Notes under the pieces: generated by a model | What the model saw: only the letters and a program-made list of their open reading frames with translations | Databases searched by the model: none | Told to the model about the DNA's origin: nothing | Part shown: positions 19,481 to 60,700 of the stretch, piece by piece | Numbering within the stretch: position 1 is the first letter of the stretch | Layout of the letters: each line of letters opens with the position of its first letter | Position numbers and translations under genes: made by a program | Assembly: GCF_000003605.2 (NCBI RefSeq) | Contig: NW_003107089.1 | Location: 807,736-871,735 of the forward strand | Direction: 5' to 3' | Source: Saccoglossus kowalevskii | Taxonomy: Eukaryota; Hemichordata; Enteropneusta; Harrimaniidae | DNA length: 64,000 nt

Positions 19481-19525
19481 GTTGTGCCCCGGGGTCTTAT
19501 TAAATATTATTTTGTTTTTTTACAG

Positions 19526-20621
19526 GTGGGCTACGATGATAACAATGATATACCATAATGCTACTAGCATGGACGAGTCGGCGCTAAATTCTTCAAATTC
19601 AACTGAGATTGCAGGGCCACCTCGAAAATATAATCGGAATGTTCGTCTAGCGGCGTTCATTATCATCTTCATTATTTCGATTATCGGAAATTCTATCGTT
19701 TGTACCTGGATGTGGACCCATCGCAAGCAAAAATCTCGAATGAACAAAATGATTCTGAGCCTGACCATGGCGGACCTATTTGTCACTCTTTGCCCACTGG
19801 TGACCGAGTTTGTCCAGGAGTTGCTAGAGGCTCGTTGGATAGCTGGAGATACAGTCTGCCGCGGAGTTATGGTTCTACAGACCTTTGCCATCCACGCCTC
19901 AACCAACAGCGTTGTGGTAATATCCATCGACAGGCACCGTGCACTTCGTAACCCGTTCGCCAGAAATATCCCGGTGAAAATTCTAGTCAGTGGAGCCTGG
20001 ATTGCAGCTTTTGTGTTTTCAATACCACAAGCCTTTGTATGGAAGCTAGGCTACCGCAGAAACGGGGTTCCCAAATGCACGTCTATATTTTCAACATTGC
20101 CGGGCTTCCATGTCAAAATCTACATGGTGTATGCATCCCTGGTTGTGTTCCTCATTCCCTTCTGCATTATATGCATACTATATCTTCAAATTTTAAAAAC
20201 CGTATGGGAACGAGGCAAGGAAATTAACTTAGATAGCAAACACAAGAAAGGCGCGGGTCATAAACAGATGAGCGCCATTATTACCCGCGCAAAGATTAAG
20301 ACGCTGAAGATGACCCTTGTGATTATACTGACCTTTATTATCTGTGGAATGCCCTACTTCCTGATGGAGATGATAGTGAGTAACAACAATACCGTGAAGG
20401 TCGACCCAAATGTATACGCAGTGCTTGGAATTTTCGCGCTATCCAACAGTGCCGCCAACCCATTCGTGTTTCTCTTCTTCAATTCGGACAACAAGCTCTT
20501 CCTCTTGCTGGAGCAGCGTTTCTGCTTTACCTGTTTCAAGACTCACGAGGTAAAAGGTCATGCCGTTAAAAGTTGTGACATGGACAAGTCTGATGTGACA
20601 ACAACAATAAGCTGCGTCTGA
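19526..20621 (+). CDS. Rhodopsin-type peptide GPCR (vasopressin/GnRH/corazonin-like)
   Basis: A seven-transmembrane receptor, expected in the plasma membrane and activated by a neuropeptide. With exon 1 the protein is 372 aa. It has N-glycosylation sequons in the N terminus (residues 19, 29, 32) and TM1 at about 49-70 with GN at 62-63. TM2 is at about 83-108 with LTMAD. The disulphide pair is Cys119 and Cys192, and DRH (143-145) stands in the DRY position. TM4-TM7 are near 159-180, 206-232, 266-291 and 304-326. AKIKTLKMTLVI at the start of TM6 is typical of vasopressin, GnRH and corazonin receptors. CGMP replaces the usual C-W-x-P, and NPFVF replaces NPxxY. Cys341 and Cys344 are possible palmitoylation sites. 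The whole 7TM domain is in one exon, with an acceptor (poly-T then ACAG) at 19525. The exact ligand class is inferred and uncertain. Confidence 0.9.
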
Positions 20622-24940: not shown

Positions 24941-25047
24941 TCCGTCTGCAGGTTTTTAGTTGATATCATAATTCATAGTTGATGCTGATGTCACGAAATA
25001 AATTATATTAACATAATGTTGCAAATCTAAATGACCCCCTGAATGCG

Positions 25048-25501
25048 TTGATTGTTCACGTTATGGACACAATGAATACAGTTACCCCAACCAAAATAGC
25101 AAAGAAAACTATTAAATCGCCTAGAACCAATGAAACAACGTGCATTGTTTGTGGCAGTCAAATAGAAAATATAGAAAAAAGGAGGAGACTGTTTCGCGGG
25201 ATCAACAGAACTACGACATGCGAATTTGTTGTGGCAGAGACGATCGGTCTACATCTTTCCAGTTTGTATGCGTGCATACAATGTGAATGAGAATGACGAC
25301 TCTGCAAAAACATTGGATGAGTTTCGACAAACTAAGCGCGAGTTATTGAAAAGGTTGCAGGCATTTTCCTCTAAGAGAATGACAACTGGAAGCACAGGCG
25401 CTCGGAACGTTTGCAGATCATACTTTAGATCATTTTTTATTATCCAAGAAACGTTCCGAGTGTCTGTGACTGGAAGTGGGGGATCCCTGCTTTTGGCATG
25501 A
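25048..25501 (+). pseudogene. Cys-rich zinc-finger-associated-like domain, frameshifted
   Basis: The first frame (25048-25290) encodes TTCIVCGSQIE and, about 50 residues later, LSSLYACIQCE, then stops. The next frame (from about 25226) continues with ENDDSAKTLDEFRQTKRELL. Joined across a +1 shift near 25285, the C-x-x-C ... C-x-x-C followed by a charged helix has the pattern of the N-terminal Cys-rich domains found before C2H2 fingers or DDE domains in invertebrate proteins. The shift may be a decayed gene, an assembly error or an unrecognised intron. Family assignment is by pattern only. Confidence 0.4.
25394..25467. repeat. Stem-loop with 19-bp arms
   Basis: ACAGGCGCTCGGAACGTTT (25394-25412) and AAACGTTCCGAGTGTCTGT (25449-25467) pair with two mismatches, leaving a 36-bp loop. 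A direct ACTGGAAG flanks both sides (about 25384 and 25469). This is consistent with a very small insertion in the end of the ZAD-like frame. Confidence 0.7.
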
Positions 25502-32796: not shown

Positions 32797-35700
32797 CACA
32801 GTAAATTATATAATATTAGTAACGACTCATCAAAATATACAGTTATTATTATAAGATTCATCTATTTTCATATAGACTGTATTATCAAGAATCTGCATGA
32901 ATTCCTCGTCAACTGTGAGTCACATGTATTTACTTTATGTATTTGTCTGAAGAATTGGGTCATTTGTCCGAATATGCTCGTCCCAATCAAAATAACCAAA
33001 CGCTGATTCGAATCGCTTCAAAGGATGTCGTGGTATTGATAAGTTGTATATTATGTTTATTTGGAATCAGTACATAAAGCCCTAAACGGTTGAACTTTGC
33101 ATGATTTGTTAATCATATCAAAATTACTAATAACATCAATATTCAAAACCATACCTCTGTAGGAGGAATCACTTTAATGTGAAAATCCATGAGCATGTTT
33201 AGGTAACACCATTGTGAGATTTCTCGTATAACCCAAAAAATACTTCCGGTTTTGAGGCATCGCGGATACGTATTGTATTAGCTATTCCAATGTATTTCTG
33301 ATCAAATTATGAAAGTTTACTTTCAATTCAATTCTATTCAATGATATCTCAAATGTACCACAAAATGCAAAATGATACAACAATATAAAAAGACATAGGG
33401 AATAATAATAATAAATAAAATAAAAATAAAAATAGAAATCAAGAAGGGAAATGAAAAAAAATGTATATGAACAATGCAAGCAATCAAACAAAGGCAAATA
33501 ATTTAAAATAAACACACGGTGAGCATATTTTACACACATCAAAACCGCTCCTCACAACACAGCCACTTCGTAAATTAGTTAACCGTAATTAAAAATTCTA
33601 GTTTACATATTTACAACTTAAATCCAATTACCCACATATCAATCGTTATATATTATAATGTATTGTATATTTCAAATATAATAATTGTATTATTAGAATA
33701 TTTACACAACCTGTGATTCGTCTGCATCACTTAAGATAAGGCGGTAATATAAACAATCGAATTAAAAGTCAATTTCCTGGCATATGTCGCACATACAACA
33801 ATTAAGTGGGGGTACCCAGAGTTATAAGAATCAGAATTTTAAATTGGTGAAGTCTGATAAAAGAATGTTAAAATTCTAGAAATAGTATACAACAGCAAAT
33901 ATGGACTTCCCTCTTGAAAAATTCTTTCACATAAAAGCGATTAAGAAAAACTAAACAGGAAGTGAAGTCCCTTTTGTTGCCACCGCAATAGACATAGATT
34001 GTTTAATAGATATTGATTGTGCCTTGGCGTTGATGAGGAGACAATATAGATAGTTGTGAAAGGTGTTGTGAAAGATTGAGTGTTGATGTCAGACTTTGGT
34101 AGTGAGAGGATCCATTGAAAATGAACTTCAAAGTATCCTCTTACTAAGTGGATGTATGTGTAGATGTAGATCCATAGACTTGACCGACATTTGTCAATGT
34201 CAACAACACTCCCACAGTTTAAAGTGGGTATGTATTACCCTTCTTATATGGACGAACACGTTTCCAATATACCACGCAAATGTCACGCATGCGTTGTGGA
34301 ACACATAAGAACGACCTGAAATATGCGCACTACGAAATTACCTTTGATGAGATTCTGACGTTGACTTTTCTCATGAATAGTATTATAAATTGCGATTATT
34401 AAATAGAAAGCATTTATTATGAAACGCCGCAAGCAAGCACATATTTACGACCTTGACCTTCACTCTGCGTATTGTGGTTATTAGACGACCGTACAAGATG
34501 TATATAATAAACTGGTAACCAGATTTAACAAGTGCCGCTGAATTTAAAACTATACAACGGCACCAGTGGCTGTTCCCGGCCATATGCATCTTGTAACCAA
34601 ATCAATTGCATTGTAAATACATATTTTTGTTTCCGATTGGTATAAATTATTTAGTATTAAATTTATAAAAATAAATAGCAATAGTTAATAATGCTTGCAA
34701 ATACCACACCGGTACCTGCTCATTGACAAGTTCTTGCCTCACTCAGCAATGTAAACTATCTATTGTTATGCATAGACAGTTTATTCGGTTTTATAAACAG
34801 CGGCAACAATGTACGATAATTCATGTTAATATATGCACAAATGTTGCTTTAATTAAATGAAAAAACTGATTAGCTGTTGATTTACGAAACCATTTTGTTT
34901 AATTTCTGTCAAATTTAGATCTACTCAAAATATAAGATACAATACTACAATTTAAGTAAAATGTGAATATAATTACAAAACAAATGAGTTTATTGTTCTA
35001 CAATAACATTGAGACATGACGCCATTAAACAAATAGCGTCTGGGAATACATACTTTCTTGAATAAACAAAGATATTGCAGCACACGCTTGCGTGTTTGAC
35101 ACCAGCAATTATTACCCCCCCCCCCTACTTCCATCGTAAACTGTGTTTATCCTCCGTCATTTCTACCGACGGTCACAATAACAGCGGTGCATGAAATCTC
35201 TCTACGCCTTCTGTTTTAACATTACATGGCGATAAAAAGACTGACCAATCACTCGCTGTTCCTGGGGCTGTCAACAGGTTTGGTAAATAATACATAAACT
35301 TAAAGCGTGGTGGTTGTCGCGCAGCGCGTGTTCGAATTTCATGTAAATAAACAATGTATTTTACACGCGTTGTATACGTCGCTTTGAGTCCTATATCGAA
35401 CAGGACGCGGCACGATGACTGCCGCCCTTAAAGTTCCATGTCGATTCTGGTTTAAATATATAATACAAAGTTGACGTTATCTTAGTATCTTATCAATGAA
35501 TGACGTTTACTATATGATGCAGACCAAACGTTTCATTTGCATTTCCTATATGGTTATTATTCAAGCAGATAAATGGGGAGTGCCATGCGCGGGGCAGGAT
35601 GTGCTAAGAAGCACCTGACACCAATTCCTAGCCGCGTGTTGTATAGTGCTTTGTTTTGTTTATTGTCACGAAACTTACTTGGATGATGAATTTAGATAAC

Positions 35701-36960
35701 GATTACGTATAATATTGTTTTCACTTTTAATATAAGAGTGATGTATATAATATTGACAATGCAACATTAAGATTGCATCAAATTATGGCTCGCCAAACTA
35801 CAAGTATCTATACACCATGTCCCACTGGTATTACGCTATTACAAGTAGACAGATGGCTTACCAGCAGCAACAATGTCACTACATGCAATGTACGCAGAGA
35901 ATAAAAAAAAATACTCCCACACAAATGAGTGTTTCCACTGTAACAAAGTCGGGTTGTATATCTTAATGGGGAGATACACAATGACGTCGGTTGTTGGGCG
36001 CACAAAAACTATAATATCGTGACTCAAACAAGCCAGATGAATTCAGAAACACCTGACGTTTTCCCCTTGCCGTTTGTAATGTGTTATTTTTAGTACATTG
36101 TCTCATTGTAAATTTCGTTTATCTCTTTACCTCGGTGACGTGTTAGTATAAAGTCCAATTCGATGATTATCTCATTTGCCGAAAGAGAAAGAAGGACGGT
36201 CGGAAGGGTAGTGTTTGAATCGTGTAGTATAGTTCTTGTTATAAAGCCATTTATTTGGTGAGGTTGTGATTCATTCATTATATCATGAGAAACAGAAACA
36301 CATTGGTGAAAACAATTGATTTGTTTCTTATCAATTCCTAGTTTGGGGCTCAAATGTTCTTGAAATGTGTTTGTAATTCGGCAATATGAATATATTTGAA
36401 ATTTGGTTTTCGTTTAACTATAAGGCAAATTAAATCAAACTTCGTACGATGATAAAATCTGAAAGCGTGCAGGACAAAATGGCCAGTAGGCCGGAAGTGA
36501 CGGAATGCCAACGACCCCTGCTAGACCCCTGCATATGTACGATGTGTTGTATATCGGTGCTTTCTGAAATGTCTCACAGTAATGAAACGTCAATTTACCA
36601 GATATATTATATATTTCCGATTGTGTATTCAAACTATTAGTATGAGAATCATTTTTCAGCACATCCTATAAATACATCACATTTTCTACCAAATTACAAT
36701 CAACACAGAAAAATATGACATTGTTAAAAATTATGTTTGTAAACGATAATTGTAAAATTTTCAAAATTAGTTCACATTCATTGTCTCTATATTATGGATG
36801 ACATTCATTCATTTCTGCCTAGTATGTCAGTCGGACAGTTATATTTTAGATAATGCTGTATTATAAAAGACGGATTTAAAAATTTGTAAGCCATGACCCC
36901 ATCCACTACTTATGCTTAATTGAATCACTTAACCTCAAACAAATATAATCAGTGCAATTC
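32797..36960. other. Intergenic, AT-rich
   Basis: No gene is supported. 33330-33540 is a low-complexity A/T tract with (AAT)n and (AAATA)n runs. A C-homopolymer occurs at about 35115. Open frames are short and without domain features. Confidence 0.4.
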
Positions 36961-37361
36961 TTATTTTGTTTTCTTGCAGCGGGGGTATGCCCAATGCCTC
37001 ATAAAAACAGTAAACGTCTCAGAACCTACTTTTTCATAAGTGTTCTGGACAAAACGGCAGTCTACACAGTCTAACAATGTTTCACCTAAACTATCCAAAA
37101 ATAATAATTCATTAAAAGAAACATTTTGATGGCGGCACCATATTTCTAAACTATGAGAAATCTTGAAATATAACTCATTAGTTTGTGACTTTTTCAAAAT
37201 ATGTTTGCTCTTCTCTATTGTTAGGAGGCAATCGCGGCATTCACATAGGTGTTCAGTACCGATGGCCTTGTGAGAAGCAGCAGCTTTGCGTACAGACGGG
37301 GGTTTGCTACACCGACCATCGCCAGCAGATGTTGTTTGTTGATACATAACACATGAGGTCT
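36961..37361 (-). CDS. Cys-rich paralogue B, exon 3 (last exon)
   Basis: The exon starts after a TACCATCAG acceptor and joins exon 2 in phase (G + AG makes Glu). It ends at TAA (36961-36963). It encodes 132 residues with LCECRDC, HSLEIWCRH, TLLDCVDCRFVQ and a final TFTVFMRHWAYPRCKKTK. The Cys spacing suggests metal binding. It is clearly related to the last exon of the neighbouring gene at 41181: same motif order and nearly the same spacing, both stopping shortly after a (V/I)(F/Y)(M/V)xH segment. I recognise no named family. Cytoplasmic or nuclear location is likely because no signal peptide or membrane segment is present. Confidence 0.65.
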
Positions 37362-38427
37362 CTGATGGTACCAGTTTATGTTCTAAGACAGTAATGATAA
37401 ATGTTGAAAGTTACTAAGGCTACAAATATGCATTAATCTCAAAATTATATTTTGGGCATATTTCTTTGTATTTAGCTAACAACAGGTGTTAAAAATTGTT
37501 CTGTAATTAAGACATTCTCTAAACGTTACTAAGCATAGTTAGGTCAGTGCAATGTATTTCTTAATAAATACATGATAACCAGTATCTGAACGACTGAAAG
37601 TAATGAAAAAACTGTTTTTTTTCTAGTAGTCGGGGTAGTAAAAAAGCACAATAGCGATTCTGGCCATCAGGTAAGCACTTATATATAGACATAGGTATTG
37701 CTTATGCACTACCATACTAATCTCACGTATAAGCTTTCAGATGATATATAGGTTAATTATCACTTGTTGCAAATGTAAAACTTACAGGAAGGCAATAACA
37801 TTATTATTATATGAGCAGTAATCATCATCTGAGGATAGATGTGAAAACAACATATTCAATTTAACTGAAATACCGCTTAATATATTCATTTAATTACCTT
37901 ACCAGAACAATAGGGGGATAACGAATTGGGTAACTCTGAACATTCTATTGGATAGACACTCTTCTGATCATGATCCACTACCCCTTGCTGCTCTGTTTAA
38001 CAAAAGACACAACACTGAATGTAGTGCGCGGCACGTGTACATTTATTCAAACAACGGGACGTTGATTTAGGTTATCATCTCATGGGAATGGAACACAGCA
38101 AAATATTGTTTTTTCACAGACAAAATATTGACCCTGCTATGATTTTTGACATGTCCCTTGAATCACAATTACAATACACATAAATGATTCAAAAGTTATT
38201 GTCCTCGGTTATAACTATGAATTCCGAGATTTATATTACATGGAATCAGTTGAGCTGTGTCAATCACAAGTCGGCCAAAACTGTTTGCGACTGGAGTGTA
38301 GTACCCCTGCGATTGTGTTGTTTTCCGCCAGCAGCTACGACAATACTTATTAACAAATCTTCAACATTCTTTGAAATCATAATTAGTTTGTTGTGAATAA
38401 CGTAAAAAATATTTGTAGTTAACTAAC

Positions 38428-38491
38428 CTTTTTCTGCGTCTTGATTATTGTAGTGTCGATGTGTATTATCTTCCTCTTCCTCCAAATTATT
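38428..38491 (-). CDS. Cys-rich paralogue B, exon 2
   Basis: A 64-bp exon between an AATTTTAG acceptor and an AAAAAG|GTTAGT donor. It encodes 21 acidic and polar residues (NNLEEEEDNTHRHYNNQDAE, then K) plus one base. It starts in phase 0, matching exon 1, and ends in phase 1, matching exon 3. No domain is present; it is probably a flexible acidic linker. Confidence 0.6.
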
Positions 38492-39549
38492 CTAAAATTA
38501 CGAGCATAGCATAAGTATAAGGAAGATATAAGTGTGTTTGTAATGTTGAATATCTGCTGCCCCAATTGTACTTGTGTTCACACATTCAGACTGTCCGTGT
38601 CGTAAGCATGCGTTCAAATCAAAATGATAACAATAACTATATGTGTGGGCCACAATATGTGAGTCACAATATATTTTAGTAATATAATTATTTATGTGCA
38701 GCCTCGAAAATTATGGAGAGTATTTATTTCACAAATTTAGTGTTGTTATTTTTATTTTTATTTCGTATTTTCTATTTTAATCTCGGTGTAAATTTCGAGG
38801 CTCGAAGTTTAACGAACCTACAATCATGAAAGAAATATATAAAACATATACATTTTAGGAAAGTATGTAATTGTCTTGACAAATCGAGAACAACAAAAAT
38901 TGTTTGTCTGAACTCAGCTTCTGTCCCCGGTCTTTGCATTGCATCAGCCTCACGTAGAAGGACGTTGAAATTGACAGTGAGAGGGAAGCATGCTGTTAAA
39001 CATATTAGACAATTTTTGATTCTTACAGTGAATACCGTGTTTACAATTTGGATGTATGAATTCAAACGCTTACGCTAAAACCGGGACTAAATATGGATTG
39101 TTACAAAATGGGGTCACCGTACCATTAATGGATAGAACTGTAGTATGAGATAACAGAACTTATTGTTTTATGAGGGGCGAGATTGAAATGTGGTGGTCAT
39201 TGCGTTTTTATTAAGGTATAGTGATTGATATTACGATTATCAATATTGAAACTATAACGATTTATATGTTTCAAGGATTTATAAGAATTCGACAAAGATC
39301 TCATTCAGCATTTCATTTCCGCGAGTTTCATATGCGCGTCAATAAAACTTATTCTGGCCAATCACATGACGTAATAGCTGGTTGAAAAAGTTCGATTGTG
39401 CAAATATATACGAGTACGAATATTACCATGTTCGAAATACCTTAGTGTGCACAAAATGTTATCAATAAATTATATCTTGTATTTAATATAGACTTTTGCA
39501 TTTGTGCAAATGAGTCTGAATTAAAGTATTGAAAAGAATTAATACTCAC

Positions 39550-39573
39550 CGGAGTGCGAGCTCTCTTTGACAT
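39550..39573 (-). CDS. Cys-rich paralogue B, exon 1
   Basis: ATG opens eight codons (MSKRARTP) that end at a strong GTGAGT donor in phase 0. The basic start resembles the MFKRRKL start of the neighbouring paralogue. With exons 2 and 3 the predicted protein is 162 aa. All three junctions are in phase, which supports the model although exon 1 alone is short. Confidence 0.5.
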
Positions 39574-41180
39574 CGTCGCACTCAACACACATGGAAGTGA
39601 AAATAAAAGGTTGTCGAGCTCATTGTAGCCGGTTCTATGAAATGCTGATAATGATAATTACTTAGAACTAAAACTACTCAATCAGTACCCCGAGGTATTC
39701 GGTCCGCACCACGCAAATATTCTTTGACCCCGTGTTGTTTTAATCCAAAGTTACCATTCTTTCTCACGTGAGCAGTATTGATATTGTTTTCGGCAAGGAA
39801 CCAATGATAAACGTGGAGCGAGCTCATGTCTATTATGGCAACATTCAACACCCTAGTGTGGTCAGTCAAAATTGATCGCATATTTAACATACTAATTCAA
39901 ATTTCTTCAGTACTAACAAATCTTAGAATATGTAACATTTAATTGTTTATATCTTTTTTTGAGCCGATAATTCTTCAAATCGAATTATATAACGTTTGAC
40001 AGTAATTCCCATGTAAATAATCGTCTATTCGACAACAATAACGAGTACCTGTTGTCTACTGAGTACTGCAGTACGCCCATTGTTCTGTCCGTTTATGCCA
40101 CAGATCTGGTTCTCGTAATTTCACATTTGTGCACTTTTCGAGTTTTACTGTATTTGTACTTATAATAAGCAGCTTCTACGCGGCTAATAGCGGCGATAAT
40201 GTGTGGAATTGCTCAAGCTTAAGCTAAGGCACGAATAACTTATAGGTATGTGTGTTATTTTTGAAATTCCCAGGATGACAATTCCATGTGATAAAGCAAT
40301 GAAACTTTTTCGAAATCCCCATACATACTTTAACTCGTTTACAGATCATACATAGTCCTTGGAAAGCCGGTCGCATTTACAGTAAATCTGAGCCTCTACT
40401 TACAGAATTTGTATGAGCCATGGATAAAATTTATTGAGAATTTGGTAACCATGAGAACATAAGAGACACACAACAACGAGTCGTAGAGTTGACTATGATT
40501 GGTGTATGTCAGCTGAACTAAAAACAAATATTACGGAATCATTTAGTTACATTCACAAGCCAGGTTTTTGTTTGCTTTAAAAAAGATAATAATGCTTATA
40601 CCATCAGTCACCAGGTTTCATAAATGTGATTTAACACATGAATATATTTCTTCAAACGTAGATGAACCATTACAACTAATTAAGACATGCAAATTTGCCG
40701 CTGAAATGGATGTTAGAAAAATTGCTTTCCAATTATGTTTGTATAATGAGTCTCTAGAATGACATAGACAATAGGTATATTTGGAATGTTGTTTATTGTA
40801 TCGTATCAGCTGCTCTTGAAGTGTTCTTTGATTGTGAAAAATAACAAGAATTTTAATATATGCATTTACATAGCAATGGGTCTTACATTATTTTCACAAA
40901 TTTATATTATTGAGATAGAAATATTCTTCTAATAAGTGTATTAATACATTTTATAGTGTCGTGCTCATAGCGGACTTGATAATTGTGGAAATTCAACAAA
41001 TCTGTCGTGCTTAGAACCAATAGTGTTCTGTTATGTGTTATCTAGTTTGCATAATGTTTGTCAGCGTTTGGTTGGATTCTCGTTCAAATTTGTTTCACTA
41101 GCGCCAAACCATGCACAAATTGTTGATATATTAAACTGCAAATGTTATTTATTGCAGAAATACCGTGGTGGCTTGGACAG
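39574..41180. other. Intergenic between the two Cys-rich paralogues
   Basis: No further exon is recognised. It should hold the promoter of paralogue B and the 3' end of paralogue A. The plus-strand frame at 40568-40762 has no support. Confidence 0.4.
41149..41154 (-). promoter_or_regulatory. Poly(A) signal AATAAA of Cys-rich paralogue A
   Basis: The minus strand reads CTGCAATAAATAAC about 27 bp downstream of the stop codon at 41181. The close spacing supports a genuine, very short 3' untranslated region. Confidence 0.45.
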
Positions 41181-41502
41181 TTAATTTTTGGCATTGTGCT
41201 CTACATAAATAGTTAGTCTACTCCCCTCTTCATATCCAAGAACTTTCTGAACATGATGACAGTCAAAACAGGAACATGCTTCGAGTTTGGTCTCAGGATA
41301 TCCTTTGAATGCAGTCTTCATCTCAGGTTTGCTGTGTCGCAACCAAATCTGTAAACACCGTGACAGTTTAAAAAGCGACACTTCCAACCCATCCGTTTCA
41401 CATATACGATTACTTGTTTCCTGTATGGCTCTACAGTCGACGCATTTGCATTCATTCTGTTTTTTCAAATGTTGGTATGTATTCCTGGACCAGTTACTGT
41501 GA
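41181..41502 (-). CDS. Cys-rich paralogue A, last exon
   Basis: The open frame encodes NECKCVDCRAIQE, LSRCLQIWLRH, ACSCFDCHHVQK and ends RLTIYVEHNAKN then TAA. Two C-x-C-x-D-C clusters flank an L-x-I-W-x-R-H helix. This repeats the architecture of paralogue B 4 kb away in the same orientation, so the pair probably arose by tandem duplication. The start is an acceptor, either CTTCACAG (used here, 41502) or GGTCCAG (41487). Both enter in phase 2, so a middle exon is needed between this and exon 1 at 42724. No database family is recognised. Metal binding is an inference from the Cys pattern. Confidence 0.6.
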
Positions 41503-41740
41503 AGACTTTTCCCATTATTAGTCGGCGAATGGATCTAACAAACAAATTCACATTGGTAAATGATTGGCTAAAGTGATAAATTAATAATTTGCCATTTTTT
41601 TTAGTATACGTGAGATTGGGAGTAATTATTTTATCATAAACAAAAAAACTCAAATGCACCACGGCTGTTTGTTATCGCATTCGTTACTACTTTGTGCCTT
41701 TCCCCATGCCTCGTGCGTAATCGCGGGATGGGTGGACTAC

Positions 41741-41829
41741 TGCCTTTGAATAAGTTCGGCCACAAGGTCACATGTATTGTAGGAATTTTCCTTTCCATTA
41801 GAATGACTGTATTTCTCTTTGAACTCTTG
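41741..41829 (-). CDS. Cys-rich paralogue A, tentative middle exon
   Basis: From an AAACAG acceptor the frame reads QEFKEKYSHSNGKENSYNTC, continues for nine more codons, and ends CA before a weak GTAGTC donor. Its phases (0 in, 2 out) are exactly those needed to join exon 1 to the last exon. The acceptor tract lies inside the end of a repeat element that begins beside it. The weak donor keeps confidence low. Confidence 0.25.
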
Positions 41830-41830
41830 C

Positions 41831-42085
41831 TGTTTAAAGAGCGGTAGTCGTTGCGCCACGCATGCGCGAGATATATGGGTCTCATATAAACAAAGATGGC
41901 GCCTTTGACTGTTGCGCAGTTCAACAAGTACAAACTGAGATGTTACCAAGTTTTAATTAGGTTTTTAGGTGATTTGAAGGTATCGAAGGAGTCACCGGCG
42001 GTAATTAGTGCAAGTCGCGCCCAGGTCAAACCTCATACTTGTGATTTTCATTAGAAGAGCGCATTGAATTGTGGGAAAATCGAAT
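41831..42085. mobile_element. TIR element copy 1 (related to 62837-63143)
   Basis: It begins TTTAAAGAGCGGTAGTCGTT. It shares about 200 bp with 62880-63085 (CATATAAACAA, ACAAACTGAGA, GTTACCAAG, AAGGAGTCACC, GGTAATTAGTG, GATTGTGGGAAAATC). The copy at 63 kb retains an inverted version of this same end, so the sequence is a TIR element. This copy appears to lack its right terminus. It lies inside the intron of Cys-rich paralogue A. Confidence 0.7.
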
Positions 42086-42723
42086 ACACTTGCTTAACTG
42101 CTTGCAGGCCTGTCTATGTCTTGACTACGGTAAAAGTAAAGTTATGCTACGTATTTTGTCGGGGGCTATGTCGTAAACGGCAAAACGGAAATAAAATCAT
42201 ATTTTTGTAGTTGCGAATACAACGAAAAAACAAACGGAAATGAAGTATTAAAAAAACGTTTGCTGTTGTGTAGTGGTATGACAACAGTGGAATAATAAAG
42301 TATCTCTTCTCGTTTTATGTAATCTCAAGTAGAGAATACATTGGTAAATCAGAGCAGTCAGGGCAAACAGAGGTCACATTGCGTTAGGTGCGATACACCG
42401 CTGTGCAAACACAGATAGCAAGACACTGTGTACAGAGTTTATAGTATACGAAAATGCACTTTGGCACACAAGAAGTGATAAACTGTGTATGCTGTGTATA
42501 AATTGTACTACTTATGTCTGATTACCATGCAAACGCACTGAAACGAGTTTCGAGTGTGCAACCTTTTGGCTACCGGCCCAAAAAAATGTGTTTTTGTAAA
42601 TTCTGAAACCGCTGTCGGAACATTTTAAAGGACAAATACTAGTATAACACATCCGTTGAATGTGTGACGCTCTATGGTTCTATACTGAAAAAACGAATAC
42701 ACTGAATGAAGGACATTACTTAC

Positions 42724-42792
42724 TTGCTCAGAAACGTCAATATTATATGAGTCATCTATTTCATTAGTGTTAAGCTTTCTCCTTTTGAACAT
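42724..42792 (-). CDS. Cys-rich paralogue A, exon 1
   Basis: ATG opens 23 codons (MFKRRKLNTNEIDDSYNIDV, then SEQ) that run to a strong donor CAA|GTAAGT in phase 0. The basic start followed by an acidic, polar stretch mirrors MSKRARTP plus the acidic exon 2 of paralogue B. Upstream in the presumed 5' flank is a 29-bp tandem repeat. Confidence 0.5.
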
Positions 42793-42878
42793 TTTCAGCA
42801 GCGGTGATAGAACAATGTTATTTCGTGCGTTACAAAGTGAAGTATGTGGCAGGGAGTTGCCCGAGACATAAAAGAAAT

Positions 42879-42957
42879 TGGGAAATACCCATGATGTAAA
42901 CAGGGTTTGGGAATTTACCATGATGTCAACAGGGTTTGGGAATTCCCATGGTGTGAT
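42879..42957. repeat. 29-bp tandem repeat, 2.7 copies
   Basis: Units of TTTGGGAATTTACCATGATG followed by TCAACAGGG repeat with few changes. It lies about 90 bp upstream of the candidate start of Cys-rich paralogue A, so it may be in its 5' untranslated region or promoter. Confidence 0.85.
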
Positions 42958-43139
42958 TAAAGGTCCCTCTAATTGGACCATGTAAATTGCCTGCATATAA
43001 ATATTAGCCGGGGAAGTAGATACAGTGGCTCAATTAACATTTAAAACACTGCGATAAAGATTTTCCGTTTTCGATACAGTATTTTTACCAAGTAAAATCA
43101 TATTTATTAAAGTAATTATAAAAAGTGTTATGAATTATT

Positions 43140-43440
43140 CTTAATATAAAATTCGAGTTATCAAATTTGATCGTTAAACAAAACAACAAACCTATGTTGC
43201 CCGTAACTCGAAGTTCGGTTAACTGTTTATTAAAGTTTGAGTTACTAAATGTGGACGTTCAACAAAAACAAAATTATATATTGTCCATACCTCGATTTCT
43301 GCTAAAAGTGATAATTGAATATCGAGTTACAATTTTGGCGTGGTTCCTCAAAAGTGGGAGTGGTTTCCGAAATGTGAACGTAGTCATTTGTGAAACTCGA
43401 TTGTTTCGTAACTCGATGTATCGTAACTCGAATAATCCAG
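43140..43440. mobile_element. Possible pogo/Tigger-like transposon remnant
   Basis: The sequence is rich in repeated GTAACTCGA/TCGAGTTAC words (43145, 43203, 43325, 43405, 43422), with a right edge CGTAACTCGAATAATCCAGTA. Sub-terminal repeated words of this kind occur at the ends of pogo/Tigger-type elements. The left end is not clear and no transposase is present. Confidence 0.3.
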
Positions 43441-44160
43441 TATCTCCTTTGTCACAGTTTTTTACACCACTGTTGGTCACGTGACCCATTGTTCTAGTCG
43501 TTTATTCATTTAGAAGTTGTGAGCGTCTTTCGCAAGTTAGGATAAGACCATAGTATTCTTGCACCTGATCAGCTACCATGAACTGTAGAGCGAGCATTTC
43601 TTCTTTCAACTCATTCTAGTTTTTGCGATAGTTCGTAGCCCCAGAAAGTCTGAAGACTTATCTGATGACACGCTACCCATCCCTCACCTGATGCGTGATA
43701 GTGACTATAATGTTGGACAGAGAATCATGGTGGTCAGCAAAGGTCCACCAAACTACGCCCTATCAAGCACTGTCTGATAGTCTGACATGGTTGTTGAGAA
43801 CGTTACGGTCTGCAATTGTAGGTGGAAAGATTAATATGCAGAACCTGGCAGTTTTAGAGTCTCCTCTTCACCTAAGCAATAATTGTTTAAAATGTGTAGA
43901 ACCTAAATCAGTTCTAGGACCATGTCATTTCAGGTGCATTAAAGTCTCTAAAGGTAGCTGAACCAATCAGGCAGTGAAGCAGCATATTGTTACTCGTAGG
44001 GAACTTTCTGAAGATATTCCAATGCTAATTACAATGGGAACCTTTTATTATAACAGTGAACATCTGAGATCGCGTTTCAACAGTGCTTTAATGCCATCTT
44101 TTTCGGTGATGTTCCTACCTAAACTGATAACCTATTACGATTGTATAAACCCGTTTGTTT
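43441..44160. other. Intergenic, no gene seen
   Basis: No supported coding sequence. It abuts the left end of the DIRS-like region. Confidence 0.4.
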
Positions 44161-44163
44161 ACC

Positions 44164-44413
44164 AACCAGAAAATCCGTGGAAAGCTAAATTTCATTTATT
44201 ACTCATTTATTATCATTTATTACAGATTACGGCCCCTAACGGAAACAACTAGAGAATACACCCAAGTCCAAAAGAGACACCCTAGGGTAGCATTCTCTAA
44301 AAAAAAAAGGCCTCGCCTAAAGGGTCACGCTAGGGCGATCACGCACCTGAGGCCTGTCAGTTTCAATTCTCCATTACATTTTTTCCATTACCTACCAGAA
44401 AATCCGTGGAAAT
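44164..44413. repeat. Direct repeat CCAGAAAATCCGTGGAAA flanking a 230-bp segment
   Basis: An 18-bp word occurs at 44166 and again at 44396. The enclosed segment contains AT-rich duplications followed by AGGCCTCGCCTAAAGG. It lies at the outer (3') end of the DIRS-like copy and may mark its terminus or a secondary insertion. Confidence 0.5.
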
Positions 44414-44799
44414 AATAAATTTAATAATAAAATGAGTAGCACGCTCACCTGAGTTGGGGAAGCTCCGACGGTTTTCTTTCGACACAAAAAGGCAAGAAAG
44501 TCAAAAAACTGATAGAAATCTAAAACTACTCACCAACAAGGAGTCTTGTCCTTGGATATCCCCAATTAGGTGACTCTTCAGGGACTGAGTGCCCAAGAGT
44601 AGACTCCCTCCTCCTCAATTTAGGGAGGCTTACTGAAGCCGGCCAAAAAGCCGAACAAAAAAATAGGGCCCAAACAATTTTAATGCTTTAAAACAGTGTA
44701 TTTATTCGGTTCAAAAGCGCAGATCGAAGTCAGCAACGTCAATTAAATCGAGGCTGGTTTTCAACAGAAGAATGAAGCATTAAAGATTTCACGTGTGGG

Positions 44800-45560
44800 G
44801 CCCCTTGGTGGTGCGGGCTGGATCCACAAACACTGTCTAACCCGTCGTCACTGGTCACAACCTGTAGAGACCCTCCTCCAACGCTTAGAGGTCTCTCACA
44901 TAATAGTTAATGAAGAACACTGCTCGGAGCACCTGTTCAAAAAGGCACCAGACATCAAAGCCAAATATTTAGCTATTCTGCACACTTCGAGGCAGGTTGG
45001 CTTTGCTTGCTCCGCCCATAACAGACAAATATGCACCTCTCGCTGCCCCGATATAATTTGGTGCAATCGCAGTACTATCTCAGAGCTCGGAAAGGACATA
45101 GAATCTGTTCCTGACAGTCTTCCTTGCCCACTATGTTAGCGAGGCGTGGGATGACAATCAGTTCAGGGTCATGCCCTGGGATTTGATTCTTGGCAAGAAA
45201 GCCCATCCAATAACTTTTGAGTTCATAAAAGTGGCACATCCATCACTATAGTGTCCCTCTGAACGCCGCCTACCTGACACCATAGCCAAAAGAAAAAAAC
45301 TGTTTTCATAGTGACATACTTCATGACTCAAAAAGGGGGTGTCGTAATGTCGCTAGAACCAACAACAAATCCCAATCTGGAGGATTTGTTAGCCCCTTGG
45401 TGCGCAGCCTCTTCGAGCAGAAAGACTTAAAAAGTTGTTGCATAACTGAACTCGAGGCCAGTTTCAGTCCCACAGACTCTGATAAAACTGGGAACAAAAC
45501 TGACCGATATCCAAGAATCGTTGATATAGATTTTCCTTGAGCAAATAAATACAAGAAAAA
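44800..45560 (-). pseudogene. DIRS-like tyrosine recombinase remnant (copy B)
   Basis: The frame at 45321-45554 encodes the N-terminal SAM-like domain (FAQGKSISTILGYRSVL, then RLRTKGLTNPPDWDLLLVLATLRHP). The catalytic part follows in other frames at 44880-45310 (QILCPFRALRYY, then CLLWAEQAKPTCLE). Several frameshifts make it inactive. The GYRS and WDLLLVL segments are characteristic of DIRS recombinases. Confidence 0.8.
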
Positions 45561-45599
45561 GTCGGCTACCTTGCTAATGGCACTGAGATGATCAATCTC

Positions 45600-46740
45600 C
45601 CTTCTGTTACACCAATCAATGTAAAGTCTCCATCGGAAAGTACAAACGTGCCATCCGACTGTGCCGAAGCGAGGAACTTGGACAACTCTGCAGAAAAGCC
45701 TTGCGCTTGCACAAGTTTATTGACAGCCTCCACGCTTGGAATAATGCGGGGCTCGTCAGTAGAGTGCTATCTGTCTTGGACAACAGATCTGGAAGATCCA
45801 GCAACACCACAGAGGACTCGACTAGAAGGTCCATCAACATTGGGAACCAGACCTTCATTGGTAAATTGGGCGCCACCAGTGTCAGAAGGCAGGTGGGCTT
45901 GAGTCACAGTTTCTCTAACACTTGGTGCACTATTTGGAAAGGTGGAAAGGCGTAAGCCATCCTGCATATATGGTCGGCCACGTCCCATGGACTTGAAAGT
46001 TGATCACATGGCCACCCCATCCTTGGATCGTCAAATCTGTAATGAGATTCAGCGAGGGAGTCATCAGATCTAGGGGTATTCCCCTTTCCAAGTTCCGGGC
46101 GTCCTTCCACCAAGGACGAGTCTGGAGAGCTGCTAACAAAACTAAACGTCACTGAAGTCATTTCACCAATTTTGACAACAGGAGTTGGCTGGCGATCTCT
46201 GTAAGGATGTTGCACAGTGTCTGAGAGTGGCGGTATTGAGTTGGACTTGGGAAAATTTATTAAAAAGCCTCGTGGAGGAGTGTTTGTGTCAATCACATGT
46301 GCTCCGCTAACACCTCCCTGTCTTGGTTGTGAAATAACCAGTCGTTGAGGTATGGGGTTCAGGTAAACAGATAACCGGTGTAGCACCTAGGTCACCAGTC
46401 TGTTGAAGACATACAGTGCCATGCACAAACTGAAAAGGAGAGTGGTAAACTCGTAAACTTTGCCCTCTAAGGAGAATGTGAGATATCGGCTGCAAGAGTG
46501 GTGAATGGGGATGTGGAAATATGCATTGCTCAAATCCAGCAACACCAGTAAATCACCTGTGTGCACTGACAGAAGTACTGAAGCCGGTGTTTCCATTCGG
46601 GAGCAATTGAGCTCTACAAACCTATTCAGTCGACTGAGGTCTAGGACCGGAAGCCATCTCCTGAACTCTTGTGAAAAAGAAAGATGTGGGAATAGAATCC
46701 TGGAACTGAATGGGGCTTCTCAACTAGGTGTATGACCCTT
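45600..46740 (-). pseudogene. DIRS-like reverse transcriptase/RNase H remnant (copy B)
   Basis: RT motifs appear in order on the minus strand: FRRWLPVLDLSRLN at about 46660, LVLLDLSNAYFHIPIH with YEFTTLLFSLCMALYVFNRL (46387-46596), then a linker. The RNase H start (DLTIQGWGGHV, 45930-46139) is followed almost at once by the conserved AYAFPPFQIVHQVLEKL segment. The central part of RNase H is therefore deleted. Several stops and frame changes are present. Confidence 0.85.
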
Positions 46741-46899
46741 TTCTCCAGAAGGCTGGCCACTGCCAGATCGTCCCGCCTTGACCTCGTCCCTCAGCAGAAG
46801 ACCAGAGGGAGGATGAGGAGGAGGAGAAGGAGGAGACCGAAGAGCAATCTGATACCCTCCAGACACTACTGTGAGCGCCCAGAGATCGAAAACTCTCCT

Positions 46900-48026
46900 G
46901 CGCTAATCTTGAATGTGCTGCATAAGGCACGATCCCACGGGAAGGAGCGGATGGGGGTTCAGAGCCAGAGTTCCTCGAACTCCAGCCTCCAGCACAGAAG
47001 GATAAAGATGGGGAGACTGGGCCTGAGGAATCCGGAGGGGGGAATCTAGAGTTGTTCCACCATCCATGCCCAGGCAGCCGGCAACACCTTCAAAGAGACT
47101 GCATGGCTCCCTGTCCCCAGAGGCGCCAGAATGCCCACCACCAAAGCCACGTCTCTTCGGCTTTTTCTTACGTTTCTCACTACTAGTCCGTTAATCGGCC
47201 ACAAAAAAGCCAGTCACGCCCCAAGGCCTTCTCCACATGCATTCAAACTCGTCTCCCGCTAGGGTACAATAGGCGCACTGACTAAGAACTGCCTCCCGCT
47301 CGACCAAACCGCTCCTGCCAAGAGTGCAGTATGGAGTTCCATGATATTGCACATAGCAACTTTCTGCGCAGCCAGAAACTGTCCCATCTGCCCAAGGATT
47401 GTGGTTCGTTGCTGAGCACTTTGTCAGACGGTCAGAACTTAACAGTGTAGGCTGCCGCTCTAATGCCAAAGTACTCATTCTAAAAAATATACGGGTTTTA
47501 GCTCTGCCTGTAAAGCCTGATGCACCTGCAGGCTCTGGTGATGGTCAAATGAGCATGCAACATGGCCTTCCTGATCTGCGCAGCCCACCATAACAAAGGT
47601 GAGAGTACCAAAATCAGGATGGGGAACCCATAGAGAAGGCAGGAGAAGGTAAAGCATGGGTATCCCACACCAGGGACCTGTTGACGGTTTGCATAGCCCC
47701 GATTGCATATCAGTTCCCCCAACGGAAGGCATATGACAGGACCGATTCAAATCTAGGATCAGTATTTTTGTTCTTTTCTCCTGAAGGGTACCAATCACTC
47801 CCATCCATTGCTCTCTGAGCCCCCTCCATAGCCTGAGCCACACAAGGTGCCAAGGGGAGTTGGCCAGTGGGCCTGGTCTCCACACCGGAAGTGGGAGATG
47901 AGAGCGCCAATGAAAACGAGTCCAAAGGCGACTCCACCATCCGGGGTGTGGGATTACCACCAGCCTGCATGAAACAAGTCTTGCGGCAAGCGCTGCCCAG
48001 TTCACAAGCTGCGACCTTAACTGCAT
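46900..48026 (-). pseudogene. DIRS-like gag remnant (copy B)
   Basis: The frame at 47475-48026 ends HQALQAELKPVYFLE, matching HHTLRAELRPIKLLE in copy A. Further pieces at 47191-47478 extend it. The product would be the nucleocapsid-like protein. It is broken, and fused upstream to the end of copy A. Confidence 0.6.
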
Positions 48027-48049
48027 ATTAATACTACAACAGGACCCAT

Positions 48050-48860
48050 CCTAATGAGTCCCTTCTCAATGGATTGAGTATCACTTAGGTAGTAGTTGAT
48101 AAAGGTGTTTTCCATTCTCCAGAAGCCTGCCCTCAGAATATGTTCGAGGGAGGCACCTGACACTAGTCGGGAAGGCTGGCCTGTTTGGCTTGCCTTGGCC
48201 ATAATACATAAGCATGTGCTTGGCACCCTGCTTTGACTCTCTAGTACGGCCTTCGTAGTAACTCAGTGCTCTGACCGGGCAGAGAAGCAATTCTTCCTGA
48301 TCCTGGGCCAACAATATTTGTTAGCCAGGGGATGACGATCGGCTGTGGGTTGTGCCCTGGGATTTGGTTCTTGGCGAGAAAACAGATTTGTGTCTTTAGC
48401 ACAACTTGATTGTCCATAAAGGCGGCACATCCGTGGTTCTCGTGTTCAGGGTTTCGGCCTCTGATTATGGAAAGCAGTAAACAGACTCCTAATAATAGGA
48501 AAATCTGCTAGTATTGTCCGCAAAGCATTCTCAATAATGGGAGACATGGCTGACATATAGCCCACTTCGTCAAACAGGTGGACCAAAAAGTCTGCTACCT
48601 GGCCAACAGAGGGATGAAATGGATCAATCTCCCTTCCGCTACACCAATCAGTGTACGCTTGTCATTTCAAGTTGTAGGCTGCATTGGCGGAATCCCTATT
48701 CGCCCTGGCCAGAACGTTGACAGCCTGAGCAGATAAGCCTTTTGTCTGTGCAAGTCTACTGAAAGCCTCCATGCGTGTAAGTGGTACACCACTGGACTCG
48801 TTGGTAATGCGCTGTCCTGAAGCACTACTGGTGTTTTGAATAGCATTTCAAACAAACCAA
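48050..48860 (-). pseudogene. DIRS-like tyrosine recombinase remnant (copy A)
   Basis: The frame 48081-48314 encodes QEELLLCPVRALSYYEGRTR and MLMYYGQGKPNRPAFPTSVR, the catalytic-domain region with the RALxYY box. An internal deletion near 48450 removes much of the core compared with copy B, and the N-terminal linker lies in other frames at 48500-48860. Confidence 0.75.
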
Positions 48861-48862
48861 GC

Positions 48863-50655
48863 CTAGGTTGGCCAATTGGGCGCCAGCAGAATCAATATAC
48901 AGGTGTGCTTCTGTCGAAGTTTCTCCAGTACTCGGTGAATTAGTGGGAAGGGAGAAAAGGTGTACGCATCCATGTGGGTCCACAGGAACGACAACAAATC
49001 CATGGCCCTAGCTCCTGGTGTCAGCAGGAGTGTTATGTGCGTCGGGAGCTTGGCATTCTGGGGTGTGGCGAATAGCTTAAACAGCCTGGAGGCTACCCAT
49101 TGGGGTATTTGCCACTCTGTTTTAGAGATGGAGCCGCTGCGAGATGGCATTTTCCTCACTCCTGGAAGGTAGTGTGCGGTTAGCTCCACATTGTTTTCAA
49201 GGCACCAAAGGAGAATTTGCTCTGATAGGACTGACAACGATGGGGATCTTGCCCCACCCCCCACCAAAGCTGTGTTGTCCGTGCACAGCAAGACTCGAAC
49301 TACGGGTAGAAAGTGTACTAAGTGCACAAGTTCACTGCTTTCAGTTCAAGCCAGTTGATATGGCGGTCTCAAATCCAATGCAGGGGCCATATTCCTTGGG
49401 CTTGTTCGTCCAATGAGTGCACTCCCCAACCTGTGAGGGAGGCATCTGTTACCAGAGTCATAGCCGTGGCGAGTGGGTCCGGGAAGCCCCCTGTCTCCTT
49501 CACTTGGTCCGAGAGAGTTACTCGCCTCTCCAGTTCCCGTAAGTGCACTCGGTGTTGTAGTAAAGTGCGCTGTACCGGGCGGCTGCGCAATGCAGCCTAG
49601 GAAATTACCCTGCGAACCAAGGTCATCATGCAGATGATCCGCATTAGTTCTCAGGACACTGAGGTAATGCCAAGCAACCCGCCCGTGATGGATGTAACAA
49701 GCTCGCCTGTCGAACTCCATGCCCAAAAACACCAACTGTTGTGTTGGTTGGGGATGGGACTTTGCTTGATTTACTAGAAAGCCCAGTAGGTGTAGTAAAT
49801 CCTGTGTTAGCCTTACTTGTTTGGGTTGTGTAGTAACAAGTCGTCTAGGCATGGGTTGATGTGTACCGACCCCCGGTGCAGCAGCAGAACTACCTGTTTC
49901 ATCACTCCGGTGCACACGTAGAGAGCTGTGAATAACCCAAAGGGGAGCACTCGATATTTGAATACCTAGCCCAGATGGGCGAATTGAAGGAGTTGGTGAC
50001 TACTCACTGAGTGCATAGGTATGTGCAGATGGGCATTGCTTAGGTCTGATGAGGCTAGCCAGTCAAAATGGTGGATGGAGAGTAGAACGCTGTTTAGAGT
50101 GACCATATGGAACCGATCAAGCAACACATACTAATTTAGTCTGCTTAAGTCCAGAACTGGACGCCAGCCACCTGTAGCCTTTGGTACTACGAACACATTT
50201 GAGTAGAAGCCTGGATTTAATGCCAGTTGTTTTACCTTGTGTATGGCGCCCTTTGTTAGCAGACTATTTACTTCCTGTTGGATTTCTTCCGCATTGCGGG
50301 GGGCCCATGGCAGTGCTGACAGGGGTGGTGGAGATCTCAGTGGTATCTTGTAACCATGTGTCACTACCTGGAGAGTCAAGGGATCAGTCATCCACTGCCT
50401 AGAAGCCGAAATGCACAAGCACAATATTATTCTGTGTGCAACAGGGATATGTGGCCATGGGTTTGGCGGTTGTAGGTTGGGTGTGCTCTTTTGCGGAGGT
50501 GAGTCGCCACGAGGCTTGAAGTAGACCTGGCCTCTCATCGAACGTATGCCCATCCCTCCTCCGCAGAGGTAAGCGTCAAAGGTACTTCCTCCGCTACCGG
50601 GGTGAACGACTGCCAAAGGAGAAGCCACGACCTCTTCTTTAGGGGCGCGTCGCAC
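48863..50655 (-). pseudogene. DIRS-like reverse transcriptase/RNase H remnant (copy A)
   Basis: In minus-strand order the pieces are NVFVVPKATGGWRPVLDLSR (RT fingers, 50131-50655), ASSDLSNAHLHIPMH and YRVLPFGLFTALYV (about 50080-49900), LDD in HINPCLDDLLLHNPNK, and LVFLGMEFD. RNase H follows with VTDASLTGWGVH, then LLCTDNTALVGGG and the VLEKLRQKH segment at about 48920. The LDD stands where YLDD is expected. Four or more frameshifts are needed to read through, so it is inactive. Confidence 0.88.
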
Positions 50656-50780
50656 CTCTTCCCTTCCGCGGCAGGACGTGGTCGCTTACCTCCTGGCTGA
50701 CTCAGGCCAGCAAGCGTCGCTTTAGGGTGTTGTGTTTTCTGCGCTTAGGGTGCCCTCCCTTTGTCTTTGGCAGCAGCCAA

Positions 50781-52100
50781 CTATCTAGCAGACTCAACCT
50801 GAACCATCTGGTTGGTGGCTTTCCGAAACTCCAAGACTCCACGTGCCATCTCCCCATCAAAAAGGGTGGAAGACGTCCAGTTTGCGTAACTGAAGTAGTG
50901 ACGTACCCCCTGATTCAGCTCGTCGGCGAAAACACACGCATTTAAGACAGCGTCCTGTTGTACAAAAGTAGCCCCGGCTAAGAGAGCCAGGTGACACTGG
51001 AGGATGTCGCACGTAGCTGTGCGGTGTCCTAGTGATAGTTGTGTTGCCTGGTCTAGGAGGCTGATGCACTCTGCCTTCGGAGTCTCAGAGTCCTGGGCAT
51101 GCACAATGATATGCTTCAGCGAGCAGACCACATACTCCAAAAGTTTAATGGGTCGTAACTCTGCCCTCAGAGTGTGATGGATCGTTTTGACTTGAGCTGA
51201 CAAGAATGTCAATGGAACGTGACCATCCCCCTTTACTTGTCCCGCCGAACAAAAATTTGTGGTACCCGGGTCAGGGGGAAAGGAACCTTGGGATCCGGTC
51301 AGGGGCGTTTGGCCTCATCCCAGACTTTGCCGGAATCTGAGTCAGGAACAACTCTGATCAGGTAGCGTTTGGTCCAGCAGAAGAAGTTTTGCATAAGATT
51401 ACCCCAGCCGGGGGTCTTAGGTATCACCTCCTCTATAGACGACCAATGTCTGCACATCAACACCGTCTACGGGCACTCTGCCACACTTAGCACTTGGCCG
51501 GACCAAAGAAGGCGTGCAGGCTGGGATGCAATCCCATGAGCGTCAAAGCAACAGTAAGCGACTGCTTTAGGATCGAGGGTGGGGGTATGTACATCTTGTC
51601 ATTAGGTTTGATGATACTCTGCATCATCCCTATGGCGTGGCTCACCGAGTCATTACGAATGGATGACTCCGAGGGGCCGCTCGATGATGTACCCACTGTG
51701 TCTGACGCAGCCGTACTGCTTCCCCTCATCTTAAAAATGTAACCTAGAGCGTGTTCGACTGAGCGTCTGATAACTGGGTCAGCCCCTCTCAGGGAATGCC
51801 TGTGGGTCGACAAGAAGGATGTTGATATCCACAGTGGAGGCCGGACTCAAGGGTAAATTCCTTATACCGGTTCCACGTGGCGAACCCTGGCTGACTGTTC
51901 ACAAGGGGGAGGCGCAATGTGCGTCATGTCCTGATTGCTCTGCCTCGAGATCGGAGGCTTGGCTGACAGCATCCCCGTCAGCTTTCTGTGACTGAGGTCC
52001 CGGCAGAGACCTGGTGCCACTAGCCTGTGCCTAGCCTTCATCCCAATTAACGGAAAGGTCGGGGCTGGGAAGGGGGGTTCTCGGGAAGAGGCATCTTTTG
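50781..52100 (-). pseudogene. DIRS-like gag remnant (copy A)
   Basis: The frames 51487-51813 (SRGADPVIRR-like start, then KMYIPPPSILKQSLTVAL and LHPSLHAFFGPAK) and 50781-51212 (HHTLRAELRPIKLLEYVVC, then LDQATQLSLGHRTATCDILQ) belong to the structural protein of DIRS elements. The pieces are in different frames. Confidence 0.65.
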
Positions 52101-57700: not shown

Positions 57701-60700
57701 TGGATGACATCATTTGCATACTGTGCTGTCATCAAAAAAAAGAATCACTTTTTCACAGCCTGATACAAGTTTCAAAATGCACTATAGTATATATGAAAAC
57801 AAATTTCTGGTCAAAAGCTGGCCAGACACGTGATCCGCAGTATTCTGCAAACTTTATTACAAAAAACAGAAAAAAAATGCATACTTACTCCGATAAGTCT
57901 GTACAAGTCTCATCTCTCATATCATTATAAAAAACATTCTCAATGAAGAAAAAGGATGACTTAAAGACATCTTTTGCTCGGTTATCTTGGGCTAACATTG
58001 GCGTCTCACTAAATTCACCCGCCACAGAAAGATCAGATACACATAATATTTTATCACGTAGTTCTGTCAAATACTGGGGTCCAAGCACAAGAATTTCAGT
58101 GTTTATAACTACCTACAAACAAATCAAGTGTGAATAAAGATTCTTGGTCTAGTGCCGTCTCGCTACGCCCAAATAAGGATAGGAAAAAGATAATGAGATA
58201 CTATGACATAATCAGAGCTTACCCATTCAAAGTCAAATTTTATCACTTTTCACAAAATAAACCTAAATAATATTTTACATTCTTCTTCAAGATACCACCT
58301 GATAATGAGATATTATATCTATTTTATTCAAATTTAAGATAGAAATATAGAAAAAATACACAAAAAATTGTAAAATGTTGCATAAACATTTTGGTGGTAA
58401 AAAAACTGTTTTGTGAAAAGATAAACAGTTGATCAAAGATATTGCACCACAGCCTACAATTGATCTAGATAAATTCATTATGGACATAATTTCCTGCTGA
58501 TTACAGATCTTTTTCTAAATTATTAAAATAATCTGGTGAAAATATTTTGCATTCAAAAATTAAATGTTTAAATACACATATATGAGGTTACCATGACAAT
58601 ACTGGAAAGTATATGCACAAAAGCAGTACAGTGATTGTATTTACAGATTGTGATTCCATACTGCCTCAATGAATAATCTGCGGTATTCTCTTAATTACCT
58701 TTTCTGGCTTCCCGTAATATATTACTATACACGTCCAACTTAGTGACTCAGGATACTCAACTCTAGGATCATGTTTTTAGCTACATATACAATGCATGTA
58801 AAATACATTGTTTGTTTACATAAAAATCAAACACACGCTTCGCGGTGATGTCCGCCCTTTAATTATTTATGTGTGAAGCCACTTTATCTAATCAACATTT
58901 TTACCAATGTTGTCAATTGATTTTCTCTTTTAGGATAATTCATAAACAACATTTTTCATTCCTATTTTTGTTTTGTACCAATATTATATATCTACAAGAA
59001 GAAATTAAATGACTAAACAGGTAAACATATTGCCTAAGTAAGTGAGTAATTAATTAATAAATGTAAAGCAATACTTACCCTAGAATTCTTAATGACAGGA
59101 TGAAATGTGACAAGGGAAAGTACCGCCTCTGGCTGTTTCAGTATACTCTGCTCATCAGGTATGTTGGACATGTGTTGATGTTCCTAAAATACGTTATAAG
59201 ACAACTTGTGTGAGAAATGTCGATGACATCTGTGATCTATTCAATAATTTTTCAAAAGTTATATTCATTTTGAATAAATTAGGATATTTTAGAACTAGCA
59301 GCCTGTCGGCTGAGATAGCTCTGCTGTTCTCAATGCACATTTCAATTAAATAACTGAAGATATCATCAGAAAATGAACAATATGTATAGTATTAAAGCAA
59401 TCAGACTTGCTGTTTTCAACAAAAATTCAAAAATATAACTTTTTATCAAAAATATTCATTAAAATTAGATAATTGAAGAAGAAAATCATCACGAAATGAA
59501 CAAATCTGAGAGAGGTCTACCTGTAGTACCTATGTAGTATATATAATATCAAAGCAATTGGACTTTCGGTTTTTAACAAAAAGTCGAAAATATCACTTTT
59601 TACCAAAAATTACAAAAATATTCATAAACATTAGAGAATTGAAGATATCATCACGAAATGAACAAATCTGAGAGAGGTCCTCATGTAGTGCCTATATATG
59701 TAATATCAAAGCAATTGGACTTGCGATTTTTAACAAGAAGTTGAAAATATCACTTTTTACCAAAAATGACAAAAATATTCTCGAAAATTAAGGAATTAAA
59801 GATATCATCACGAAACGAACAAATCTGAGAGAGGTCCATCCAAGGTACCTTCCTAGAAAGTTTCACAGCTATACAGTTTGTGGTTTTTAAGAAGAAGTCG
59901 ATAATGTAAAGTTGACGATGTTGACAGCGGAGCTAAAAACACATCAAAATGTGCAAAAAATTGCACAAGGAAAATTCATAAGCTTCTTACTAAATCCCAG
60001 CTATAAGGGTTGTATTTCCTTTGTATTCTGGATCTCCTCTCCAACATGTGTTTTCGTGATCTGCGATAGAAAGAAAGAAACATGTATCAAGTCATCAAGC
60101 AGTTATGAAAAGTACTATCCCAAGCTAGAAGGTCACCTTACACTGTTATGAGGCCAGTGAGTACTCGGACAAAATTAGAGACCCACAAGAACCTCTCTCT
60201 CAATTAAAACAGTCTCACTTCTAATTCAGACCAGGGCTTATATTCATAATAGATAATTGACACTGAATCAAGTATCACACAAACTTCACCTCCAAATAAG
60301 TAAGTGTTGATGTTACAATCTTTATTTGGAAATGTCTCATCCTTTAAGGCAAAGGGTTGATGCAATATACCATAAAATTATTGCTAGATATCAATACAAT
60401 TTAGGTATTATATGTAAATGTGTATGAAAGTAAATAAAAACAAAAGGACATGAAATGTGGATTATAGGCTGAAAGTCACACAAGAAATTACACAATACTA
60501 ACACAAGTGACAAGTAGCATGCTTGTATACTAGTTTTAGCTCAGATTGTTTCTTTCTTTCTAATGTTATGTACCTCTACTTCCAAGCACGTTCTCACAAT
60601 TTATTACACTGACAACATGCCAATTATGTGTGAAAATACATTCAAAATTACATATAAATGTTTTCTGTTCAATCATTTGTTATTTTATCTTTTTTTATCT

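Follow-up and report, generated by a model that had tools for sequence, protein, structure and literature searches.

The CXC/CRC domain of the CPP (tesmin/TSO1-like) proteins is rich in Cys and contains CxC steps, as do the two proteins described here, although it has many more Cys residues per domain; Pfam includes a CXC-domain model. A second possible likeness is to the N-terminus of senataxin-type proteins, where CxCx[DE]C precedes a hydrophobic stretch and then a His. In the SV40 small t antigen, each of two CxCxxC clusters binds a zinc ion together with a single additional ligand (Cys103 at the first site, His122 at the second), and the bound zinc has a stabilising effect on the domain (PMC1945078).

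Here we describe two neighbouring minus-strand genes, A and B, of the hemichordate Saccoglossus kowalevskii, located within a stretch of 64,000 nucleotides of contig NW_003107089.1 (positions 807,736 to 871,735; hereafter, the window). Their last exons, at positions 37382-36961 for A and 41534-41181 for B, encode homologous proteins, each of which has two CxCxDC-type Cys cores; after each core comes a hydrophobic stretch closed by a His. The two resemble the unique domain of polyomavirus small t antigen in being small proteins with two CxCxxC clusters, both of which are present in B, whereas the second cluster of A is CxxC only. They differ in that the clusters are separated by 58 residues in B versus 27 in SV40 small t, and in that the additional ligand of SV40 small t precedes its cluster while the candidate His of A and B lies after it. 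Because neither protein gave a sequence match to a small t-like zinc domain in Pfam or PDB, we regard the similarity as one of build rather than kinship. There was also no Pfam match to the CRC/CXC domain (tesmin, CPP) for A or B.

The segments that end in His read IWCRH and VFMRH in A and IWLRH and IYVEH in B. In both proteins the third Cys and the His are 33 residues apart in module 1 and 21 residues apart in module 2. An earlier first-pass annotation of this DNA had claimed the same spacing for the motifs of the two genes; this holds inside the modules but not across the whole, given that aligning the link between them takes one gap of two residues and one of three, and that the second core of A is without its first Cys, both CxCxxC clusters of B being intact. 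Residues common to A and B, in the last-exon numbering of A, include C46, C48, C51, H84, C105, C108, and H129. The basic M(S/F)KR start and the early stop after the hydrophobic-His segment, both pointed out in that annotation, are indeed present, with ATG codons reading MSKR at 39573 (A) and MFKR at 42792 (B) and with stops that lie 10 residues (A) and 4 residues (B) past the last His.

In a single BLASTP comparison, the last-exon proteins were identical in 26 of 89 columns with 5 gap positions (E 6e-9). Smith-Waterman alignment of A with B over the whole stretch gave a score of 99, whereas shuffled sequences averaged 30.8 (sd 5.7) and none of 5000 scored as high; the claim of two same-strand genes with their motifs in the same order was borne out. 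When the modules were aligned separately, module 1 extended over 39 residues without gaps (15/39 identical, 0/5000 shuffles as high) and module 2 alone was weaker, its score being reached in 2 of 5000 shuffles; in these tests the module borders were picked after the motifs had been seen, and Cys-rich composition inflates the scores.

At the DNA level, A and B share only short chance matches. Identity at codon positions 1, 2, and 3 was 0.54, 0.55, and 0.33, respectively (87 aligned codons), and among identical residues with fourfold-degenerate codons the third base was the same in just 1 of 6. The comparison of dN with dS between the copies, which the first-pass annotation had proposed, yielded a dN of 0.75 and a saturated dS of 2.70 (NG86). 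Taken together, the protein homology, the codon-position pattern, and the saturated dS indicate that the pair is real, old, and held at the protein level. We conclude that A and B are ancient tandem duplicates whose last exons are constrained as protein. It could be argued that one or both copies are now pseudogenes, as the second core of A has lost a Cys and the exon structure of gene B is unclear (see below). However, both last exons are open, stop included, over 422 bases (A) and 354 bases (B), and the constraint extends over the history of the pair, although this is compatible with a recent loss. We consider decay of either copy unlikely.

Similarity is also seen between the two modules. 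In a profile-profile comparison, module 1 against module 2 scored 34.0, a value reached by none of 600 shuffles, which averaged 14.6 (sd 3.4) and peaked at 28.25, with the aligned part consisting of the 12-column Cys core only. Single-sequence tests across modules supported the repeat for B1-A2 (0/5000 shuffles as high) and B1-B2 (6/5000), and were not convincing for A1-A2 (179/5000) and A1-B2 (343/5000). Structure prediction, another check proposed in the first-pass annotation, gave AlphaFold models with mean pLDDT values of 35.5 (A) and 44.8 (B). A strand pair was predicted in the second module of both proteins, but the first module differed between the models, which as predictions are too weak to merit a fold search.

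For the gene models, donors were ranked among 3900 GT sites and acceptors among 3256 AG sites; the percentages given below, obtained with consensus matrices, are only rough. All exons discussed are on the minus strand. The last exon of gene B, which contains both Cys modules and the stop, is certain, being homologous to the last exon of A, and its acceptor ranks in the top 20%. Exon 1 (42724..42792; MFKRRKLNTNEIDDSYNIDVSEQ), which begins with ATG, ends in phase 0, and has a donor in the top 0.72%, is plausible on splice signals without homology support. The first-pass annotation had assigned three exons with consistent phases and 162 aa to gene B. We recovered this model (42792-42724, 41829-41764, and 41534-41181), whose 22-aa middle exon has an acceptor in the top 3.4% and is the sole in-phase 66-base insert above the thresholds used. 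Nevertheless, we regard this exon as doubtful: its donor is only in the top 34%, two other in-phase inserts outscore it in summed splice score, and on the acceptor side it adjoins a MITE-like repeat whose matches begin at 41833. Joining exon 1 straight to the last exon is also in phase and yields 140 aa (23 + 117 codons). Given the weak donor and the adjoining repeat, this two-exon model stands beside the 162-aa model. An AATAAA is located 27 bases 3' of the gene B stop. The MITE-like repeat itself (41833..42081) lies within the gene B intron and is no part of the gene; it is 77% identical over 234 columns to a second copy at 62858-63136, and a 40-base terminus matches inverted at 88%.

For gene A, a consistent four-exon model with phases 0, 1, and 1 gives a product of 199 aa. 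Exon 1 (39550..39573; MSKRARTP) starts with ATG, ends in phase 0, and has a donor in the top 0.13%; beyond its basic start, it shows no conservation with B. The predicted exons 2 (38428..38491; acceptor top 15.7%, donor top 2.4%) and 3 (37903..37992; acceptor top 4.2%, donor top 0.31%) both end in phase 1 and join in phase. They are followed by the last exon, which is homologous to that of B, carries both Cys modules and the stop, and has an acceptor in the top 7.8%. No AATAAA is found less than 705 bases from the stop of A.

Searches of family libraries yielded no significant matches. In Pfam-A, no family matched at E ≤ 10 (with stretches of 120 aa from A and 94 aa from B as queries) or at E ≤ 1 (using the full last-exon proteins), and none matched in NCBIfam or PADLOC. 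PHROGs gave three weak matches, the best with an E of 0.056. Among PDB sequences, A had six matches, all to one unrelated receptor (best E 0.51), the A+B profile had one (E 1.3), and B had none at E ≤ 10. No relatives were confirmed in IMG/VR, GTDB contigs, or phage records (the latter searched with A only), although viral and prokaryote collections are poor ground for an animal gene. In the literature, no described family with the Cys pattern of A and B was among the matches listed. A strong profile match to a known domain family, which the first-pass annotation had named as evidence that would count against it, was therefore found in none of Pfam-A, NCBIfam, PHROGs, PADLOC, or the PDB sequences. 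Its proposal of a metal-binding module outside known families agrees with these searches as far as the families are concerned, while the putative metal binding is read from the Cys/His pattern. Its further proposal of an undescribed protein family holds in that the Cys pattern is outside the libraries searched, but novelty as a family exceeds what those libraries can say. We tentatively entertain the possibility of an unnamed animal family built on a small CxCxDC...H zinc module that has been doubled both inside the protein and at the level of adjacent genes.

The likeness to senataxin-type N-termini, which concerns the first core only, raises the question of whether the two last exons belong to larger genes for a known N-terminal CxCx[DE]C protein that are here shortened or mispredicted. 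The gene models in the window are unproven, and this would leave room for such an error. However, A and B are predicted to be small proteins, and both frames stop shortly after their common end. Furthermore, no Pfam family matched A or B, and no helicase was present in the Pfam-scanned pieces, which cover a minor part of the window. We therefore judge this origin unlikely.

The surroundings of the genes were also surveyed. The GC content lies between 28 and 41% over most of the window and is higher in a single block at 44-52 kb. Positions 45904-51314 (GC 44-53%) contain long minus-strand frames and may represent a DIRS-type retroelement, although none of the six frames scanned matched Pfam. 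The models of A and B have long introns, and transposon-like remnants are present. An uninterrupted rhodopsin-family receptor frame occupies 19434-20621 on the plus strand (7tm_1, E 3.2e-45). These features together give the window a eukaryotic, probably animal, character. A plus-strand frame at 25012-25290 with CxxC ... CxxC, possibly another small zinc protein, matched Zn_Ribbon_TF under the curated cut-off (E 0.0067), and a minus-strand frame at 63490-63996 that looks like a reverse transcriptase end matched zf-RVT, also under the cut-off (E 0.076). Tandem arrays are located at 1119-2223 (59-bp units, interrupted by an N stretch at about 1346-1920) and at 59447-59905 (157-bp units). No Rfam family or tRNA was detected in the window.

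With repeats and retroelement-like stretches nearby, A and B might be thought of as remnants of a mobile element with a Cys-rich protein as cargo, the two having been duplicated together. Yet a search of 34000-46000, around the two genes, for paired flanking repeats or inverted termini gave only short matches. In addition, a profile built from A and B found only A and B among 1615 six-frame pieces of the window (at least 25 aa, not N-rich), and the absence of a third copy, like the constraint on the two copies, argues against a mobile origin, which we regard as improbable. The next-best match to the profile was a short CVDC stretch at 36669-36791 on the minus strand (E 0.56), which was taken as chance.

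We favour the reading, with a probability of about one half, that the products of these old tandem duplicates are small intracellular, probably nuclear, two-module zinc scaffolds that may bind partners in gene regulation. From the pattern of Cys and His residues, we infer that each CxCxDC core may hold one zinc ion through its three Cys and the His closing the next L/F/T-x-[IV]-[WFY]-x-[RE]-H-like segment. One zinc per core would make each protein a two-module zinc scaffold, as an analogy with SV40 small t antigen would also have it. The second core of A, which has two Cys only, might hold zinc less tightly or recruit a different ligand. As small Cys-rich proteins are frequently secreted, A and B might instead be extracellular, with their Cys in disulfides. 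However, the predicted N-termini are basic and hydrophilic and, by eye, do not look like signal peptides, and CxCxDC clusters with a conserved His are more usual in metal sites; thus, secretion also seems improbable to us. For the zinc scaffold that we prefer, the basic starts, KRAR and KRRK, could serve as nuclear import signals. These few basic residues suggest a nuclear location, though they lie in exons not otherwise conserved; with no conservation between A and B upstream of the last exon, the basic start may be due to chance. Our guess, made from its build, is that such a protein would most likely serve gene regulation by binding another protein or a nucleic acid.

Many lineage-restricted small Cys-rich proteins are found in animal genomes, and at present A and B amount to a solid but ordinary gene-finding result. 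If confirmed, they would provide a new small zinc-binding module whose proposed ligands can be put to the test, together with two anciently diverged neighbours in which to study it.
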